From contig OX485805.1 of assembly GCA_950295325.1 (NCBI GenBank), forward strand, positions 33,531,501 through 33,595,500: a stretch of DNA of 64,000 nucleotides, in the 5' to 3' direction. A model generated the notes under the pieces. It saw only the letters and a list, made by a program, of their open reading frames with translations, had not been told where the DNA came from and ran no database searches. Source of the stretch: Polytrichum commune (taxonomy: Eukaryota > Streptophyta > Polytrichopsida > Polytrichales > Polytrichaceae). Position numbers and translations under genes: made by a program. Positions 16,216-59,620 of this stretch are shown here, piece by piece. How positions within the stretch are numbered: position 1 is the first letter of the stretch; the number at the start of each line of letters is the position of its first letter.

Positions 16216-16344
16216 CGTCACCAGTCTCATCATCATTGTTTAGCTTCTACGCTAATTACTATACTTTGTGTAACTTTTGCTCACTAACCCACCCTTGCAG
16301 CAGTTACTGTGATCTGCAAAAATATACTTTTTGATTCCGATCAG

Positions 16345-17945
16345 TGTTTGGGGAGCATGCAGAATTAGCAGAGTTGCAATCTTGTGTGCAGGGGGAGGAG
16401 GTGGTGGGTATATGCAAGATTAGTGGCGTTGAGGTCGAGGATGCTGCAGGGATGATGGAGCTTGAGGATGCTGCAGAGATGGTGGAGGTCGAGGATGGGA
16501 ACCTGCCGGACTTGGAGGGCACTTTGATTGATGATGGAGATAATTGTGAGCCTGAAAGCGCAGGGCAGAAGAATCGGCGGGCGTTGCTGGAGATGGACTT
16601 GCAGGAATGCATACGGAGTTTGCTCATGTCGCAGATGTGTGAGCCTTCGACTGTGAAGCAGGTGCAGCAGGACGCAAGCTATTCTTCCTCATCGTCAGGA
16701 TTAATGTGGCTGCTGCAGAAATGTTTGGAGGACGATCACAATCTTCACCCACCGGATGCTGCTGCTGCAGCCGAGCAGCAGAAACGGTCCAGGAGCCGCA
16801 GCCCTTCCTCCTCGGCTGTGGTATTGTCAGGCTACATCGAGCACTTCGAGAGTAAGTTGACGGAGGATCTGGGGTGGGGCTGCGGCTGGCGTAACATCCA
16901 GATGATGTGCTCGTACTTGCTGGCGCATCAGGATCACGCAGACATGAGGGAGATCATGTTCGGTGGTGCAGGGTTTGTGCCCAACATCTCCGCATTGCAG
17001 CGGTGGCTCGAAGTGGCATGGGCCAAGGGGTTCGACGTCTCGGGTGCCGAGTACTTCGACTGGAAGATTGCAGGGACGCAAAAGTGGATTGGTACCACCG
17101 AGTGCGCGGCGCTCCTTCGCTCGTTTGGGGTGCGTGCCCGAATCATCGACTTCCGAGCGGTGGGCAACAAGCAGAGGAAAGATGGGTTGCGAACCAAGTG
17201 CGGCTCCCGGGATTCCCTTCAACCCATGAACCTCTACGAAATCTCGTTAGACCAAATGCAAGGTGATCATCAGCATCAGCATCAGAATCAGGAGGATGTG
17301 GGAAAATTCCATGTGCAAGCTCCCGCGTGCCATCTGCCATGCGAGAAGCACGACAAGTGTGAGCTGTGTATGAGTTTTGTGGAGGAGCGGAAACTCACCT
17401 CGGTCGCCGAACGGCAGGAGGATCAACTCGCCTCTTCGGAGGTCATCACCTCCGACCAGCGTAACTGGGATTGCAGAACCGGAGGTGGAAATTCCAAGTT
17501 CGATCATGGCACCGAGAGCGAGGTGAACCACGAGCACATGACTAACTGGATTTGGAACTACTTCTTGTCCGAAACAAAGACGGATCCTAGGACGAAGACG
17601 TCCTGCATCACTCTGAGCAACTTCTCCCCCTTGTACTTCCAGCACCGAGGTCACTCCCGCACCATTGTGGGCATTGAGCGGTGCATTAACCGGTCGTCCA
17701 GTCGAGGTAGCAATTTGAGCCAGGAAGTAGCGGAGGATCAGTTGATCATGTTGGACCCCTCTCTCAAAACAAGTGACATCATAACCTCTCTTCGGAGGAA
17801 CCAGGGGTGGCAGAAGCTAATGAAGCGTGGATTGCATACTTTGAAGGAAGCGGAGTACCAGCTCTGTTTCATTGAGCCTGGCATTGCCACTGGGGACGAG
17901 TTGGAGAGCTTGAAAGTCCTCAGCAGCATTCGATACAAATACTGA
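16345..17945 (+). CDS. ZUFSP/ZUP1-type deubiquitinase (peptidase family C78)
   Basis: Cysteine protease of the C78 papain-like fold. The ZUFSP branch cleaves K63-linked ubiquitin chains and acts in genome maintenance in animals; the plant role is inferred. The exon carries the full catalytic domain: Cys in GWGCGWRN (codon 16881-16883), His in the QHRGHSRT motif (17652-17654) and Asp in MLDPS (17754-17756), the Cys-His-Asp order of ZUFSP rather than the Asp-Pro-His of UFM1 proteases. The region from 16344 to the stop at 17945 is open without interruption. The first in-frame ATGs are at 16452, but the frame is open upstream to a good acceptor (CAG at 16342-16344), so the protein probably begins in an unseen 5' exon. 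A candidate exon ending 15861 at a GTATGT donor joins in phase (T + TG) but has no ATG. The N-terminal zinc fingers of the family were not found. Before the catalytic core lie acidic DAA-M-E-ED repeats and RSRSRSPSSS. A Cys-rich insertion (CHLPCEKHDKCELC) sits between the catalytic Cys and His. Confidence 0.85.
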
Positions 17946-46943: not shown

Positions 46944-49400
46944 AGTCTGAATCTTGTACAACAATGACTTGTCGACTCTCCTTCAATTCTCCTGCAATGT
47001 GGTTCCACTTGTTGAGCTTTCTGCTAGCCAGGGCACAGCTTTCTATCGCCCTTTCCGGCATTGTATCATCATACCAAGGAATCGTGTATATTTGAGAAGT
47101 CTTTTACCCCAGAGTCCTCACTGTCTTCGGTTTGTCTCCATGACATCATCTTTGCATACCATCCTTTGTAGAGCGCAATTAAATGCGGCAGTTGTGAGTT
47201 TGTCTATAGCGAGTGGTTGAACTTTGTGCAAAATCATCCCAAGGATTTGGGAAGTTTCCGACTATTCTTAATTGAAGTCAAGATCCAGGGGTGGATTACA
47301 GTAATTGAATTCTTTGGCTTCGCACCTTGTATGTACTGGTACTTTCAAGGTCATGGTGTAAACCCAATAACAGAAATCACACGATCAATTAAACAGACTA
47401 GATCTTTGGTTGGGAAATTTAAGATGGTGTGGTCTTCGGTAACTTTGACAGGTCTGTCTTGAATAGGTGATTAAGAACAATGCCCCTTGAAACTTGGAGA
47501 ATGTTCTATTTTCATGGAAATCAGCCTTGGACATGTACTGAAAAACGTGTTTATTGATCACAGATGTAATTTCCGATGTGCCTGTTTTTTCAAGTCGATT
47601 TAAAAATACCACACTCAACCAATGTTGTCGCATCCAACAAAGAATGTACACAACACTCTTATGTAGTTTAGAAGATTTCTCGTTAGACAGGGCAAGCCTT
47701 TGAGGTGGTCATGTCAAGAGTCCAGACTGGTTGGATCTGTTGCAGTCTTGTTATCATTGCAGCCCTGTCCGAGTCAGATTTTCGCACAGTGTAACTGCGG
47801 AGTAAGATAGCATAATACTGTTACAAATCTATACATTCTAGTGTTGCATTCAGATAAGAAATGGGAGAGCTTCAGTTATCCTTCATGGACCGACACTCTA
47901 CTCTGAGAGCACCGTCCATGGTGCAAGATGACTCTTTGACGGGTAGGATACCAGGTCGGGTTTGTTATTTCGCTTGATAGACCTCAATAACCTTCTTGGA
48001 TACGATTCACACTGTTTGTGATACTGCAGCAAATCTGCAACCGGGATCTGAGACGAATCAAATATCCAAGAAATGGGCGTAGGCCCGGATACAGATATTT
48101 AAATTGTAATATCCCGACAGCAGTCCAGATTCCCCAAGACTTGAGCTATGGAGTCGGAAGAACCTGCTTACAATGGATTTCTATGAGTACTGCATCACAA
48201 CATCACAAAGCAAGCATTATCTGCACAAAAATGTCTTTCCAGATAGGTAGTGCGCTGTAACAAAATTCTGAGAGACAAGTACATGGTACTGGCATTAAAT
48301 CCTCTTAGTGTAGTTGGTAAATTGTTTTACCCAAAATTGACTTTCTCCCGCCTATTGGGGCCACACCTTTAACACTTGTGTAAGCTACAGCGAGAGAGCA
48401 ATCATCAAGATTCAGCAGGAGCAGCATCTGACCCTCCGTGCTGTCTGTCAATCACGCGCCCAGCCTCCCCCCAGGCTTTCTTTCATGCCTCCTCCTCTGC
48501 TTTTCCATATTGTTGTATCCAAACTTCTCAAAGGATAGGCTGGCGGCTATGGTTGCTGCTGGTGCTGCATGAGATAAGAAACACCAGCCTTTTGGCTCCC
48601 CCCTGCTGGCCTCTCACCACCCCACAATTAGCGGTTTCCTTACGGGAGGCAGCACGCAGCGCGAGCTGCTTTGTAGTTCCTTGCTATTGTTGTTGATGAC
48701 GGGTAAGGTGGCTTAGAAGCAGAAGCGGAATTGCAGGTAGATGGTGTGGAGTAAGGCTATCACATTGGGAAATTCCAGGTGGTGAAGGTTTGTGGCGTAT
48801 GTTTTGATTGTGGGTCTCGGACCACCGGACAGGGCCACTTCTAGTGACTTGAATTAAGAAAGAGCGGAAGGTCTGTCGCCTTCTTTCTTGGTTTGTGTTA
48901 TTCCTTGGTTGTGTTAGTGTTCCGTAGTTAGTTGCAATTGGGATGATTTAAATACTGCGCATTGCGCTTTGGGCATGGTGTTTTCTTGTAATTGAAGTGG
49001 TTTGTTTGACGAATTCGACAACTACACAGAGAATTGCCCATAAAAGCCCTTGCATTGCCCGTCTCTGCGGTCATGGTTTGCAAGTCTGCGTGTAGCAACT
49101 GGATACTTGTAAAATAGGAAACATCGACATTTCACCTCCTCTGCTTTTTCTGCTCCCACTTGAGTCTTGCATCTCTTTCTGCTGGTTCCGGGTCTCTGAA
49201 ATGGCTCACGAGGCTCCGCAGTTGTAACCTCTCCGGCATATCCACGGGCAACCGAGCCCTAGACCTCCAGATTTGGCATTCAGATCTCCAAGAGTTGTTT
49301 GTAGGTAGTCATTCCGGGTTCCAATGTGGGTAGCAGCAATTCAGCGGCTTTCCCGCACCCAGAATTCGCAATCTCGACTTGAAAGGACAAGGACACCAAA
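46944..49400. other. psaG 3' flank and psaG-TPI intergenic region
   Basis: Sequence of intermediate GC content with no recognised gene. Frames at 46954-47220 and 47217-47462 overlap the likely psaG 3' UTR. A 106-codon frame at 48376-48696 (Cys/Ser/Pro-rich) has no true homologue that I recognise. Nothing repetitive stands out. Confidence 0.5.
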
Positions 49401-49405
49401 TTGCA

Positions 49406-49410
49406 TATAA
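49406..49410 (+). promoter_or_regulatory. Candidate TATA box of the TPI gene
   Basis: TATAA in the context TTGCATATAAGGTGG, 165 bp before the TPI ATG. Transcription would start near 49435-49445, giving a leader of about 135 nt. The frame across this site is open but has no ATG before 49575, which agrees with it being non-coding. Confidence 0.35.
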
Positions 49411-49574
49411 GGTGGTTGTCTCCTCGGTTCAAGACTCTCACAAATGCAGGGACGGACCCTGGCGAGGATTATGCGTCGTGCATTGTCCGGTCAGAAATTT
49501 TTCTGCTTGCTCACCGGGTGCTCTCAACATTTTGGTTGGTGGCAGGTAGTGCATTGCAGTGCACGGGTGCAGCT

Positions 49575-51053
<1,479 letters not shown>

Positions 51054-52618: not shown

Positions 52619-55600
52619 TTAGACGGAGGCACCAGGCACCCAATTCCACAAATGGTAGCTGGAGGAGCCATTGCGCTTTGCACCCACGGCGGGAGCTGAG
52701 CTGGCTCGCTGTGCCCCTGGAGCTCCAGGTGATGAGGCGATGCAGGGAGAAACGGCTTTACCCCCAATCTGGTGCAGCCCAACAATCTTCTCACGGCACG
52801 ATGGGCAATTCACAAGTCCCTGCACACATAGCAAACAAAACGATGCGTGTCCACACGTCTGTGCAGCGTGAGGGCCCCGCCGTTCAAATACTATGTCAGC
52901 TGCACCTCCATCCTCGTTCAAAAAGCAAGCAAGAGTTACAATCCTACATACTTACATATGATTTTCGCAATTGGAGGGTACAGGTAGTAGACCCAGGTCC
53001 TTGCAGCGAGTCAAACTTTAATCCCCGTTTAGATATCCTACACTAATTACATCAGAACTCAGAGCTTAGAGCTGCTGTTGAAATTAGATTCGCAAGCAGG
53101 TGCGTGCGTACCTAGCCCCGAACAAAACCCATTTTTTAGAAGTAAAGGAGAATCCATATTGGGCACTTTCGCCTTTGCAGGCTGCGTACTTGTTCACATC
53201 TTTCAAGAAAGGATTCCACCTGTCGGGAAACAAAAACAAAGCTCTGCCTATATTGTCTGACAACCCCATTTACATTTGTCAACCTATAGGCAGTGCGCTA
53301 CATACTCCAGTACGTGAGCTTGCCGAATTTCCTTATAGTACTTACAGACGAGAAATTTCTTCAAGTATCATTGCCTTTCCTGCCAAAATTATAACTTTGC
53401 TGGAGTAAAATTATCCCCCAGGCTATGATCTCCGTAGGGAACAATTTTACGCTTCTGTATGCGTAGGGTAGCTCTTTCTGGGCAAGCGATCGCAGATGTT
53501 TTGTTGGGTGGGAAATCGGGATTCGGAACATACGGACAGGGTCACCTTCAAGCACGACCAAGGTGGGAAGATGAGAATCGCTACTACGAGTTAAGATTTA
53601 GTGTGCATCTGCCAAAATTCTTGTTGCGTGAGTCTCCAAGTGATGTTTCCATATGCCACTGAAAGGTGACTCAGGTGCGCTTCAGGACAAAGAACAATAA
53701 AAAATTATGACTAGGTTGAAAAACTATATTTTATTCATGATGCATGAAGAAGGGCCTCATTGGTTCCTAAGACCAGTGAGTAGGATTCCATGGCCGATGC
53801 AGCCTGGCACCACAGTCACCATTCCCTAACTTTCTTCACTTTCCTTTCCTTTCCTTTCCTTTCCTTTCCTTGCCGGCCAATTGGTGAGAGGTTGATGTTG
53901 TAGTGAGCATAACTTGGAAGCGGGTGCCACCAGAGTAGAATGGATATGGAATTGCCATTCTGAATCGCTGCAGCTCCAATACCTCTTAACTTAGCTCTTT
54001 TTTCTCTAACCCATCAACCCCTCTCACGTCTTGGAAGCCGAAAACGGAGCAGGATTGGACACGAAGGTGAGGCGCTAGTTAAAGCACAAATTTTGTGGAG
54101 GGAGAGTGTCTGCGGGCGTAGCTATTATCCTTATGCCTCTCACCGCTCGTACAAACGGAAGTAGGGTTTAGGAGACATCATCAACACTTTCAATGGCGGA
54201 GGGCATGGTCGTCTGCCCTTGTCTCCTTGCAAGGTTCCCTACCAGAAAAAAGGTTAGCGGCAGCATCGATCTCTACTTTCATAAGGAATAATGCAACCGA
54301 TCTCTACTCTAGGTTTCGGAGCTTACAACCAGAATGCAACCCAGATAGGGCATAACAAAGTTTATACCTTGTCCAAGGATTGCACGAGATTGAACAATGG
54401 GCAATGTACCGACAGACAGACAGACAGACTAGGTCAGTTGTTCTGACCTTCGGTGCGCATTGGTCTATCTTACTCATCTTGCAAAGACAGGCAGGTAGGG
54501 GGAAATGGAAATAGCAATAAGAACATACCATAAGGCGCACTCCGGCAGGCTGCTCAAGGCAAACAATGCAAACGCTGTCGTCGATGATCGACTCCATCTT
54601 ATTCACGGGCGACTCGTAAAGACTGTACTCAGGCACGAAGCCGTTGTCTCTGGCTGCCGCAGCAAATTGGAAGGCTGGAAGACTCTCCCTCAAAAAATCG
54701 CATGTTGGAAAATCAAAGGGCGTTGTGGACACGGCTGCACCAGTAGAGCTCAACATGGTCACAGTTGTGGAAGGGGTATCCGCCTGCAGGCCTCCAGCTC
54801 CGTCTTGGGATGTGATCGGCAAAGGGAGACCTCCGTTTCCAAAAATACTGAACAAACTCGATCCCAACTTGAAAGTTCCCGGCAAGGATGCTGGCCCCCT
54901 CTCATGTGTTTGAGCATTTTCGGACCACACGCTGTTGTCACTAACTTGGTTGCCATTGCGTTCGGCCGAGTCGGCTGCAACTCCCCTGTTGTGTTGGAGG
55001 AGACGTTGCTCCAGTCGAACTTGTTGTAGGGCTTGCTCCAGGGATGCAACGGAATGCTGAAGGCCCTGGTCAATTAGCTCCAACTCCGATGCACAAGCCG
55101 CATCTTCTCTTTCGGCCTGATATGCGTTAATATTTTGCTGCTGCTGCTGTTGTTGTTGTTGCTGCTGCTGGGCTACCTGCGCATCACAAAGAAAATCCAT
55201 CATCCTTCACTTAGAAGGTCTGAAAGCTTGAATCGACTACCTGCTCAATTTCAAATTGTGGAAGATTCTCTCTTGTGTATAATAGTTTCCTGTCGTCTGG
55301 TATTCTTCGTTTTTTACTTTGCGACTTGAATTCGCAGGGAGGTCAATGCGTGGAGGTCTCTCCACTTCATGGCACTTTTGAGCAAATAGTTCTTCACATA
55401 AGACTTGCTCATTACCGAAGACGGTATGGATCTGCTTCCCCCATGTGAGAACAACTACAGAGTTAGAAAGCTCAAATAACAGAAAAGAGTACTCAGATGT
55501 TGCCCTGCGTTACTCCTCTTTTCCTTCTCCCATGTGAGAACAACTACAGAGTTAGAAAGCTCAAATAACAGAAAAGAGTACTCAGATGTTGCCCTGCATT

Positions 55601-58600
55601 ACTCCTCTTTTCCTTCTCCCATGTGAGAACAACTACAGAGTTAGAAAGCTCAAATAACAGATTAGAGTACTCAGATGTTGCCCTGCGTTACTCCTCTTTC
55701 CCCCCGGAATGCATTGTTTACTACACCCTAACATATTTTATCTGTCATAGCTGTGTAAACAATTCTTCTGTCAGATCGCCTTTCGGCTGCAGACAGATTT
55801 CTGACTGCACGACCCCTCTGCCATTGAGCTTTTCGCTCCTTGAGCACGGTGCAGAAAAATAAGGGATACTCAGGTTCATAAGAGAAGCCATGTTCTTCAA
55901 TGCTTCATGAGCCGCCAAAATGAAAGGTTGTAAGAAGTGATATAGGACCCCCTTCTCATTAAAAGTGGCCGACCCGAACATTGTCGACAAGTGCTAGGAC
56001 CCTGTCAGGCCGGTTCTTTGAGTCCACGACTCACTTAGACATGGCAACCATGCAAAAGTGTTTGGACACCTGTGCTGGTGGATATTGGAGAGCTTATTTC
56101 TCTCTATGTAAAGATCGTGAATCAACGATATGATTCAGCACAGGACATGTGTTTGTTCATGAACTGCCACGAGAGGACTCAAGCATTTTCCTAGGTGTGT
56201 TCATAGAACTCCCAATTTGATAGAAAGGGGTTGCAAGGAGGAAGATTACCTGGGTTTGTTGTGTCTGCCAATCAAAGAAGGCATACTGAGGCCGCCCCAT
56301 CGAACGGTGGTTCTGACCATGCCCCTCATGTACCTGCTAGCCCACCTCCACCGGTCACCATGAAACAATACTAAACAGATATCCCCAAAGTTCTATACAA
56401 GTTTAGTAACACTTTGATCTGTATGAAGGTTTCCACCAGGAAACTGCATCTGGTCCTTACTTGAGAACGTTGCATTTCAGGTACATCATCAGTTCTAGAA
56501 CTGTAAATCTGGTAACTATACTTACCAGACAATAATCCTTTGGAAATGTGTTTACTTTGGATTCCCGAATATAGGTAGACATCGAAGTTGCAAAGAGACA
56601 GATGATTCCCAAACTACTTTGCAAGATTTGTAGCATTGTGATCTGCAATGAAAGTTCTCACCAGGAAACCGCATCTTGCCCTTACTTGAGAACGTTGCAT
56701 TTCAGGTCATACATCAATTCACGAATTGTGCGGAACCTGCTAATTAGACTCATAAGACAATAATCCTTTGGAAATGTATTTTCCTTGGATTCTCGAATAT
56801 AGGTCGACTTCGAACTTGCAAAGAGACAGATGATCGATACTTGGTTCAATTGATGGACAGGGCATGTAGTTTTAGGATGTTCTTTTTGTTGCGGAGATTG
56901 CTGACGTCTTGTTGATATATACCTGGTTGGCCTCGTGATGAATGGCAGCTGCCTGGGCCTGCTTATGTTGCTGCGCTGCTGCTGCTTGGGCTTGATGCTG
57001 CTGCTGCAAGTGCTGGAGCCACACATGGTGAGGAGCAAACGGCAGCTGCTGCGCAGGAGCGCCTCCGACCTGACCATTGCAAGCTTGGCCTGATCCATGG
57101 GCTACAGCTTCTGAGCCACCTGCCAGCTGCTTGCCTCCAGAGTTGCAACAATTGCCAGTTGATCCTGGAGGCTCATCGGCTGGAGTGGCGAACGCTTTGC
57201 GTGGAGGTGGCTGGTAGTAAAACTCAACTTTATTGATGATGTGCTCTCTCTGCACAAACTCACCTCGACGCTTACAATCACACAGGTCCTTGTACTTCGC
57301 CACCGCCTGCTCAATCAGGTGCACTGCTGCTTGTACGACCCCCTTCTTTCCTTGTATCCGAAACAATCTGATGGGAACCGAGTCAGGCCTGCACGTAGAG
57401 GTATCAGAGAGACGCAGCTGCTTCACAAGTTAATCCTACTCTAATTCTGAGCTCATCCGCACTAAATTCACATAACAGTATCTGCCTTCGTGCATTGCAA
57501 GCAACATTATATCAATTATCCTACACGATCCTACAAAGACAGATTTCAATCGGAACTGAGATCATCTACTTTCTTTCTTTAGCCGTGTCTTCGAATGAGA
57601 CCACTCATAGATACAAGTCTCGCTTGTCGGATTGAAGTATCATTAATCTGCAGATGAGCTGAGCTGGGTTAAGTTTGAGCTTCGAGAGTCGATTATTTGT
57701 CGACCCATTACTGCGAAGCAAGTGTCCTTGTGTTCATGTGGTCTACACAGTATTTGGCAGTGGCACATCAGAATCACAAGGATATTCCTAATCACAATGC
57801 CACGATTCCAATCCATACGTCCCCCAACTGTCAATCCCACCTTTGGACTATAACTCTGGTTATTGAGTCGATGCTCCACAAGAGTAAATCACATGAAGCT
57901 CGTTAGCATGATCATAACCAGCTGTGACACGATTTGTGACCCTCAAATGCTTCGTCATGCTTTTAGTGTCATGTTAATGAAATTCTTGAGGCTCCGCCAT
58001 CACTCCCAATTCTTGTTTCAGCATTTCACAAATCGCTGCTTCGCCATAATATATATCTTTTACATGAGCAGTCATGTGCATTGGCCTCCCGTCCGGTTCT
58101 CATCCACATGGATTCTGATGATGAAGATGGTGGTGGTGGTGGTGGAATGTAAGATTACCTGCAAGACTCGGTCCAAGATTGGACGATGGCACCTGTGACC
58201 TGCCCAATTAAGCGAGCAGAGATGCCTCTGGCGCCAATCACAAAGCCAGCCGCGAGGAGAGTAACGCGCATGAGCGCTTGGGTGCCCGCAGCCTGGTACT
58301 CGGTGCTCACAACGCGGTGATCCTCGGAGGGGAGCATGGGTCCCGAATTATTAGCCCCGCCATGGGCGTTGTCCGGGAGAACACCGCTGCGAGGGCCGCG
58401 AGCAAGCCTGCGTCTGCTCTCCACAGCCGCACGCATGCTCTGCTGTTGCACTTGCTTGGCCCGCTGCGACTCCTTGCCCCGCCAGCCACCGGCTACTGCC
58501 CCTGCAGCTGCAATATCCTTGCAGGATTTGTTACTCTTATCCGCCGGCATATTATTGCTGCAAGACCGGCTGCTGGCCAGCAGCTGCTGTTTGCAACTGG

Positions 58601-59620
58601 AACTGCTCTTGCATGATGCATGCTTGCCATCGCTAATTTGAGATCCTGCCGCTGGGTGCTGGTGCTGGTGATTATCACTATTGCCACTGCTGCAGCTGCT
58701 GTCGAACACCGCAGCTTCTTGTTGCTGTGCCAACCGGGCGGCGTCTTCCTCACACCGTTGCCGCTCCAGCCTCTGCAGCCTTTGCTGCTCCACCAATGCA
58801 TCAATCTCCTGTAATTCCATTTTCATCCTCATCATCATCATCATCATCATCATCGTCACTCATACCGAGAGGTTTGGCTCAAACTGTGGTCCAGGTACTA
58901 CATCATCCACATTTTTGTCTCTATCCTCTCACATAAATTTAATGTCATAAGTTTTTGAGCAAATCAAGGGCATAATTAAGGGCAATGCAGAAGTGATTGG
59001 AAGGGTGTGTGCACAATCTGCAGAGTTAGCAAAGGGTTTGGCTGTGCTATAGTCCTACATATCCCTCAACTGCATTGCATTTCGCTTAAATGTAAGTGAG
59101 CGTTAGAAGAAACAATCAAGCACTGGTGTAGCGGCCCGTAATGGATTTGATCTGTAATGCTGTTCAGAAATAAGTCTTACTTCGTTTCATATTTATGATT
59201 AGCGTCTTCACGTGCACGTCACTCACAACTAAATTCTGGTCTGTAACGCTGCTGATGGTGTTATCAATCTTAACGATGCACTAAAACTTGCATAGAGTTT
59301 GTCAGGGTTTGTGTCTTCATCATGAACATCCCAATAGAGTCTGTGATCATGAAAGCATTTGTTCTCCACCATATTTGAAACCGATCCGCAAGCAAAGTTG
59401 ACTTAATTGGTCAGCAGGAAGCTGGTTAAGCATTGGGGCTCTCTGTGGAGGGGTAAGCATTCGGAGGTTGATAAGGACTCATTTGGCCGGGGGATTTTAC
59501 CAGACGCTGCAGACGCTCCTGCTCTTCGGCTCGCAGCTTGAGAGAGCGAGCCTGGGCCTTCCGGCGCTGTGCTGCCTCGCGCTTCAACTTCTTTAGCAAT
59601 GCTGAACTACTGTTTTCCAT
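52619..59620 (-). CDS. KH-domain RING finger protein (probable RNA-binding E3 ligase), 5 exons
   Basis: Minus strand exons 59620-59501, 58808-58159, 57388-56923, 55176-54529 and 52858-52619 join in phase (0, 2, 0, 0) with GT-AG introns, giving 707 residues. Residues 1-75 are a highly charged coiled coil (KKLKREAAQRRKAQARSLKL... then LVEQQRLQRLERQRCEEDAA) that runs across intron 1. A Ser/Gln/His-rich linker follows. Residues about 224-300 form one type I KH domain: FVIGARGISARLIGQVTGAI with the GARG loop at 232-235, completed across intron 2 by PIRLFRIQGKKGVVQAAVHL. After Gln/His/Ala-rich sequence and a 12-Gln run at the start of exon 4, the C-terminus holds a C3HC4 RING: Cys615/618 at the end of exon 4, Cys630, His632, Cys636/639 and Cys646/649 in exon 5. 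The spacing (C-x2-C-x11-C-x-H-x3-C-x2-C-x6-C-x2-C) resembles MEX-3/IAP-type RINGs. The function as an RNA-directed ubiquitin ligase is inferred from domains. The start is the first in-frame ATG; the frame upstream has only GTG. Confidence 0.85.
53840..53872. repeat. (TTTCC)n microsatellite in KH-RING intron 4
   Basis: About six units of TTTCC ending in TTGCC, inside the intron that splits the RING finger. Confidence 0.85.
55130..55170 (-). repeat. Coding CAG/CAA repeat (polyglutamine) at the start of KH-RING exon 4
   Basis: Minus-strand CAG and CAA codons, giving 12 consecutive Gln directly after the acceptor (GCGCAG|GTAGCC). Mixed CAG/CAA usage makes the tract less prone to slippage than pure CAG. 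Confidence 0.85.
55440..55705. repeat. Three tandem copies of an 89-bp unit in KH-RING intron 3
   Basis: The unit starting CATGTGAGAACAACTACAGA begins at 55442, 55531 and 55620, exactly 89 bp apart, and ends CTCCTCTTTTCCTTCTCC. Copies differ at only a few positions (for example GCGTTACTCC/GCATTACTCC), so the amplification is recent. The third copy is slightly truncated. Confidence 0.92.
56393..56838. repeat. Tandem duplication of an approximately 225-bp unit in KH-RING intron 3
   Basis: CACCAGGAAAC at 56434 and 56659, then CTTACTTGAGAACGTTGCAT, AGACAATAATCCTTTGGAAA, TCGAATATAGGT and GCAAAGAGACAGATGAT recur in order at about 225 bp. Divergence is greater than in the neighbouring 89-bp repeats, so this is an older event. 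Confidence 0.85.
58829..58856. repeat. (ATC)n microsatellite at the 3' end of KH-RING intron 1
   Basis: Nine or so ATC units on the + strand (GAT on the gene strand) lying just upstream of the exon 2 acceptor (ATTACAG|GAG). It may replace part of the polypyrimidine tract. Confidence 0.8.

Follow-up and report, generated by a model that had tools for sequence, protein, structure and literature searches.

A moss gene encoding a predicted KH-RING protein, probably a domain combination separate from MEX-3

Overview

The DNA analysed here is a 64,000-nucleotide stretch of Polytrichum commune (contig OX485805.1, positions 33,531,501 to 33,595,500; hereafter the window), in which a gene with a KH domain and a RING finger had been noticed on the minus strand. 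Our analysis confirmed that this KH-RING gene is real. Its sequence places a single KH domain, which has a GARG loop, in the same frame as a complete C3HC4 RING at the C-terminus, and both are kept in an anciently duplicated sister gene. Our preferred reading, to which we give a probability of about 0.6, is that of a single moss gene whose 707-residue product would bind RNA, act as a RING-type E3 ligase and be MEX-3-like in its working, with KH and RING combined separately.

Gene structure and an ancient sister gene

The gene was rebuilt from the sequence as five exons running from window position 59620 to 52619 (Table 1). All borders are GT..AG, the intron phases are 0/2/0/0, and the exons join in frame without an internal stop to give 707 residues and a stop codon. 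The coordinates and length are exactly those of the original prediction, which had joined the exons by eye. The KH domain is split by the phase-2 intron and the RING by a phase-0 intron between M628 and T629, and intron 4 is about 1.7 kb long. Intron 3 contains two tandem repeats, one of 89 bases in three copies (97% matches, window 55435-55699) and one of 228 bases in two copies (81% matches, window 56375-56835).

A whole-genome search covering 64 contigs (408 Mb) revealed a second KH-RING gene on contig C4. Its exons, with borders set by eye, join in phase and follow the same order with the same phases at the corresponding introns, including the one in the KH domain and the one in the RING; its N-terminal part contains an additional intron, and no start codon was located. 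Since this paralogue has the same exon order and phases, the joins in the window gene are more than chance. Searching the genome with the KH block returned these two genes only, the four exon matches being all four candidates scored at E up to 10. Relatives were not found in viral contigs or in bacterial and archaeal genome contigs, and NCBIfam, whose models are bacterial and archaeal, yielded no match up to an E value of 0.1. Automatically annotated orthologues are likely to exist in other moss genomes. LEAFY-family genes, with six exon matches in apparently three genes, mark the present genome as a land plant's, and YLFDLYEQC, carried by both LEAFY loci that were read, has the Asp typical of moss LEAFY.

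Over 542 aligned codons, 58% of the residues of the two copies are identical and 78% of the synonymous sites differ (proportion of synonymous differences, pS, 0.78), which is saturated. The KH domain with its extension (133 codons) is 87% identical, with a proportion of nonsynonymous differences (pN) of 0.095, and the RING (47 codons) is 60% identical (pN 0.233). The last 47 residues of the exon-2 KH half, up to R257, are the same in both copies. Outside the known domains, conservation was found in SMRAAVESRRRLARGPRSG before the KH domain and SSYHLWNWVPGASV at the C-terminus and, with two substitutions each, in CKRRGEFVQREHIINKVEFYYQPPPRKAFA after the KH domain and in the ELELIDQGLQHSVASLEQALQQVRLEQR segment. 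These comparisons indicate that both domains are under purifying selection within one transcript unit. Because the KH block is 87% identical despite synonymous saturation, and order and phases are shared, separate KH and RING transcripts are very unlikely. An error in the gene model, with the KH and RING exons coming from neighbouring genes or from a decayed gene, would be consistent with a model known from sequence alone, with the long intron 4 and with an exon 1 unmatched near the paralogue. It is rejected as extremely improbable, because two old copies keep both domains, in one exon order and with the same phases, after synonymous saturation.

No counterpart of exon 1 was detected in the roughly 8 kb that precede the C4 paralogue, which makes junction 1 the most doubtful of the joins. 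The first exon found in the paralogue begins at the equivalent acceptor (AG before AAC ATT GAT, compared with AG before GAG ATT GAT in the window), and the frame directly upstream of it reaches a stop without passing an ATG. The paralogue therefore seems to need an upstream exon, which counts in favour of exon 1. Alternative starts in the window are in-frame ATGs at 58820 and just upstream of that position.

The KH domain

The Pfam model KH_1 scored 16.6 bits in the whole protein, 19.5 bits in a 168-residue piece containing the domain (E 8.6e-4) and 20.6 bits in the piece from the paralogue (E 3.7e-4), all under the Pfam cut-off of 21.5. A single KH stretch was found by hmmscan (E up to 1) over the whole 707-residue protein, as had been predicted, although a very divergent second KH could escape such a search. 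Because the domain is divergent and under the cut-off, it was tested further by profile comparison. A two-sequence profile of the moss KH domains matched six solved KH domains with an hhalign probability of 94% and a score of 45.6, the best of 100 column shuffles reaching 22.7. Its score against KH exons from its own genome was 24.5, above the maximum of 17.6 in 100 shuffles. This own-genome set consisted of 12 of the 20 listed Pfam KH matches (10 distinct sequences), several of them cut at exon ends, which lowers their pairwise scores. A RING profile compared with the KH set aligned a single column with a probability of 0.05%.

In contrast, the comparison with three MEX3 KH domains gave 13.1, inside the control range (maximum 16.2 of 100 shuffles), though the MEX3 profile, made from only three sequences, found the other KH sets easily (58.4 and 38.3). 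Being above the shuffles with solved and own-genome KH domains and at chance with those of MEX3, the domain is, on these profiles, a KH domain but not a MEX-3-like one. Thus, the KH domain with a GARG loop proposed originally was borne out by profile-profile comparison above every shuffle, though not by the KH_1 cut-off. Pairwise comparison with 19 KH sequences placed KSRP at the top (z 13.8), followed by NOVA, TDRKH and FUBP by score. The MEX3 KH domains ranked 7th, 10th and 16th, and MEX3C KH2 alone exceeded its 300 shuffles (z 5.6). Both pairwise and by profile, KH domains of the KSRP/FUBP/NOVA type are thus closest to that of the moss. Proteins of this type have several KH domains and are not known to carry a RING.

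The GXXG loop of the moss protein, G232-A-R-G235, is intact with its basic residue and identical in both copies. This bears on the alternative that the protein is a genuine RING ligase in which the KH-like fold has lost RNA binding and contacts protein substrates instead. The subthreshold KH_1 scores and the conserved non-KH extension CKRRGEFVQREHIINKVEFYYQPPPR adjoining the domain would fit such a role, but a loop of this kind, together with closest pairwise matches that carry the PDB names KSRP (splicing regulator) and NOVA-1 (RNA-binding protein), makes it distinctly unlikely.

Elsewhere in this genome, a KH exon has the same protein sequence at C26:25470-25643, on a small contig, and at C2:39048396-39048569, and may be an assembly duplicate or a recent copy.

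The RING finger

With a cut-off of 27 bits, the Pfam model zf-C3HC4_3 reached 37.4 bits when applied to the complete protein and 42.0 for a piece of 106 residues, and both paralogues lay above this cut-off (37.4 to 46.8 bits). The ligands C615, C618, C630, H632, C636, C639, C646 and C649 have a spacing that fits C3HC4 and are followed by R650; neither copy has lost any of the eight or the arginine behind the final cysteine. In RINGs, the residue at this position has a role in ubiquitin transfer. The predicted C-terminal C3HC4 RING thus stands.

Its description as MEX-3-like does not hold as a specific affinity. In a single-sequence search of solved structures, the best-scoring RINGs were those of the IAPs (BIRC2, BIRC3, XIAP), and MEX3C was 19th of 26 chains. 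With the two-sequence profile, IAP RINGs again scored best, and MEX3C came 10th of 103 (best 60 of 103 listed) and was a significant match (6.7e-5). No BIR domain was matched by Pfam in the moss protein, which sets it apart from the IAPs. Similarly, the plant XB3/XBAT31-type ligases are related only by a weak match of their RING model (RING_XB3-XBAT31, 20.8 and 24.0 bits against that model's cut-off of 50), and the moss protein had no Pfam match to ankyrin repeats.

Other RING loci of the genome share a feature with this RING, a phase-0 intron one residue before the third ligand: inspected by eye, the site fits in all five loci examined (L013 to L017), and L013 has a stop triplet just ahead of its donor. 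Four of the five (L013, L014, L015 and L017) are members of a multi-copy family with a different N-terminus, none such being seen in L016. Members of this family have the layout MATF..TPQWF.., a second zinc-like motif CPVCNLWYECHEHLAASCGHTYHPWCF and then the split RING. The N part has no Pfam match; searched for in the genome, it gave at least 47 matching stretches at E up to 1e-10, the best 88 of 135 candidates having been scored. Among the matches listed, identity is 76-100% in nine long loci and two short pieces, several of them broken by stops, and the rest are more distant (28-51%). Of the distant places, five score equally and have open frames of 552 residues, which points to recent copying, although they match the N part over residues 9-134 only. 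The family looks expanded and is perhaps mobile. The RING exon of the KH-RING gene likely shares ancestry with other RING loci of this genome, in either direction.

Relationship to MEX-3 and to other plant proteins

MEX3 proteins carry KH domains upstream of a C-terminal RING of the C3HC4_3 type, and the moss protein is like the animal MEX-3 and MEX3A-D proteins in having a KH ahead of such a RING. It differs from them in having one KH domain rather than two in tandem, a KH domain that is not of the MEX3 type, a RING closer to those of IAPs, a conserved SSYHLWNWVPGASV tail after the RING and a conserved KH extension. On the features tested, the moss protein does not appear to be a member of the MEX-3 family, because it has one KH, its KH profile is at chance with MEX3, its RING scores best with IAPs and its RING intron is common to loci of its own genome. 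The independent domain combination suggested by the original prediction is probably the right description.

Were the gene a true MEX-3 orthologue with one KH lost, whether through descent from the eukaryote ancestor or through horizontal acquisition, the same two kinds of domain in the same order would be expected, and the MEX3C results would be accounted for, both the KH2 score above all of its shuffles and the significant RING match. We regard this origin as highly improbable, given a MEX3 KH profile that stays at chance while finding other KH sets, the low pairwise ranks of MEX3 KH domains and a RING intron site found in other RING loci of the moss genome. A separate origin allows a more specific proposal, which we put forward tentatively: independently of animals, mosses may have evolved their own class of RNA-guided RING ligases by fusing a KSRP-like KH, which carries an extension specific to the lineage, to an exon of a RING family that has expanded locally and is possibly mobile, and strong selection would have acted on the fusion since an ancient duplication.

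Plant KH families have been surveyed in Arabidopsis, with 30 genes (PMC8745409), and in rice, with 31 (PMC11172612). In the available part of the rice survey, STAR and C3H are named as partner domains and the word 'ring' refers only to a figure's ring (PMC11172612); the available part of the Arabidopsis survey contains neither 'RING finger' nor 'zinc finger' as a term (PMC8745409). Judged by title and the start of the abstract, the open-licence publications listed included no plant KH-RING protein, which does not show its absence from print. The plant RBR ligases of the subfamily named 'Plant I/Helicase', in the accessible part of PMC2904391, would also couple a ubiquitin ligase to an RNA-related module, to go by that name, but the pairing is of RBR with helicase, not of RING with KH. 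For domain combinations in general, parallel origins were put at 29.8% within animals and 19.3% within green plants, and a KH-helicase pair is cited as having arisen separately in Bilateria and a green alga, in the part of PMC3499355 that was available.

Proposed function

Going by the kinds of domain present, the KH domain would recognise a short motif in single-stranded stretches of target RNAs, and the RING, with a hydrophobic I616 and with R650 right after the last cysteine, would recruit an E2 charged with ubiquitin. The Q12 tract and the ELEL segment would promote self-association and could hold several copies on one RNA. The RNA would then decide which RNA-bound proteins become ubiquitinated (these could be repressors, factors acting in decay or translation, or the KH-RING protein itself), and this ubiquitination would set the fate of the target mRNA. 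Such a MEX-3-like working is plausible.

The N-terminal part had been described as a long coiled coil. Residues 1-75 contain no proline or glycine and are 40% charged, and a helix is predicted for residues 41-70 with a predicted local distance difference test (pLDDT) value of about 79-90, but the heptad periodicity is no better than in shuffles (259 of 500 reach it), so that the sequence gives support for a helix but not for a heptad-type coiled coil. The heptad signal of the ELEL segment is borderline, being reached by 24 of 500 shuffles.

Several points weigh against an RNA-guided ligase. Besides the KH_1 scores under the cut-off, the best KH comparison set was partly selected for matching, since three of its chains (1we8, 2hh2 and 2ann) were chosen because they had matched in an earlier PDB search; two FUBP KH domains chosen without that bias still scored 35.3, a pair for which there is no null. 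The hhalign probability with the own-genome KH exons was only 24%. When the two-sequence profile of the KH block was searched against PDB, three KH chains came first at E values of only 0.56-0.97, and an unrelated hydrolase followed at 1.3. AlphaFold models of the KH halves, made from separate exon translations, had mean pLDDT values of 50 and 47 and no strands, and the low-confidence model of the exon-2 half shows a helix where the first strand would be expected. A second AG lies in frame within exon 5, 39 bases beyond the chosen acceptor, and the tract ahead of it is more pyrimidine-rich by eye. If used, this AG would remove four RING ligands and could yield a RING-less form; the chosen acceptor sits at the same codon in the paralogue. 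Finally, the RING is less conserved than the KH domain (60% versus 87%), and its activity may matter less or differ between the copies.

The last point also favours a real KH-RING protein whose RING serves mainly for dimerisation or protein contact. Such a protein would regulate RNA by repression, decay or localisation and have little ligase activity, and a scaffold of this kind would fit both the Q12 tract and the borderline heptad segment. Conversely, both copies keep the eight ligands and the arginine after the last cysteine, and both RINGs score above the Pfam cut-off; we consider this alternative rather unlikely, and a ligase that combines RNA binding with ubiquitination is preferred.

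Other features of the window

A triosephosphate isomerase gene lies beside the KH-RING gene and has a long extension at its N-terminus, possibly a transit peptide. It was examined for synteny as a sign of whole-genome duplication and matched full-length on C4 and C6, but the C4 match is at 1.27 Mb and the KH-RING copy at 4.42 Mb, and nothing was concluded. An open frame elsewhere in the window has a Peptidase_C78 domain, which we take to be of the UFM1-protease type. Rfam gave no match in the window at its gathering cut-offs.

Table 1 Coordinates of the KH-RING exons, the paralogue and other features. Positions are those of the window unless a contig is given.
Feature	Position	Strand	Description
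Exon 1	59501..59620	-	Start ATG; residues 1-40; charged helical segment; donor GTAAAA, phase 0
Exon 2	58159..58808	-	Residues 41-256 and 2 bases of codon 257; charged helix; SMRAAVESRRRLARGPRSG block, which is conserved; N-terminal KH half, including the GARG loop
Exon 3	56923..57388	-	Rest of KH, ending near residue 285; CKRRGEFVQREHIINKVEFYYQPPPRKAFA extension, which is conserved; linker rich in Q and A
Exon 4	54529..55176	-	Q12 tract (415-426), ELELIDQGLQHSVASLEQALQQVRLEQRLLQ helix-like segment, middle of low conservation, first half of RING CIVCLEQPAGVRLM
Exon 5	52619..52858	-	Second half of RING TCGHASFCLLCVQGLVNCPSCREK, tail ending SSYHLWNWVPGASV, stop
C4 paralogue exons	C4: 4423259-4423119, 4422981-4422665, 4422059-4421648, 4420895-4420287, 4419686-4419492	-	Borders by eye; join in phase
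Multi-copy RING family, example places	C6:7758782-7760236; C7:458721-460166; C2:6264475-6265926		From the N-part search
Triosephosphate isomerase gene	49383-51050	+	Long N-terminal extension
Peptidase_C78 open frame	16335-17942		

Significance

RNA-binding ubiquitin ligases appear to have been studied mainly in animals. Examples given in the available part of one source are MEX3, TRIM and Roquin (PMC12419896). The interest of the moss gene lies in the pairing of KH and RING in a plant, which is apparently independent and old, as far as its sequence indicates. If the plant KH-RING proteins do have a separate origin, the coupling of mRNA recognition to ubiquitination would have arisen more than once, and the moss would offer a testable two-gene family in an easily edited haploid plant.

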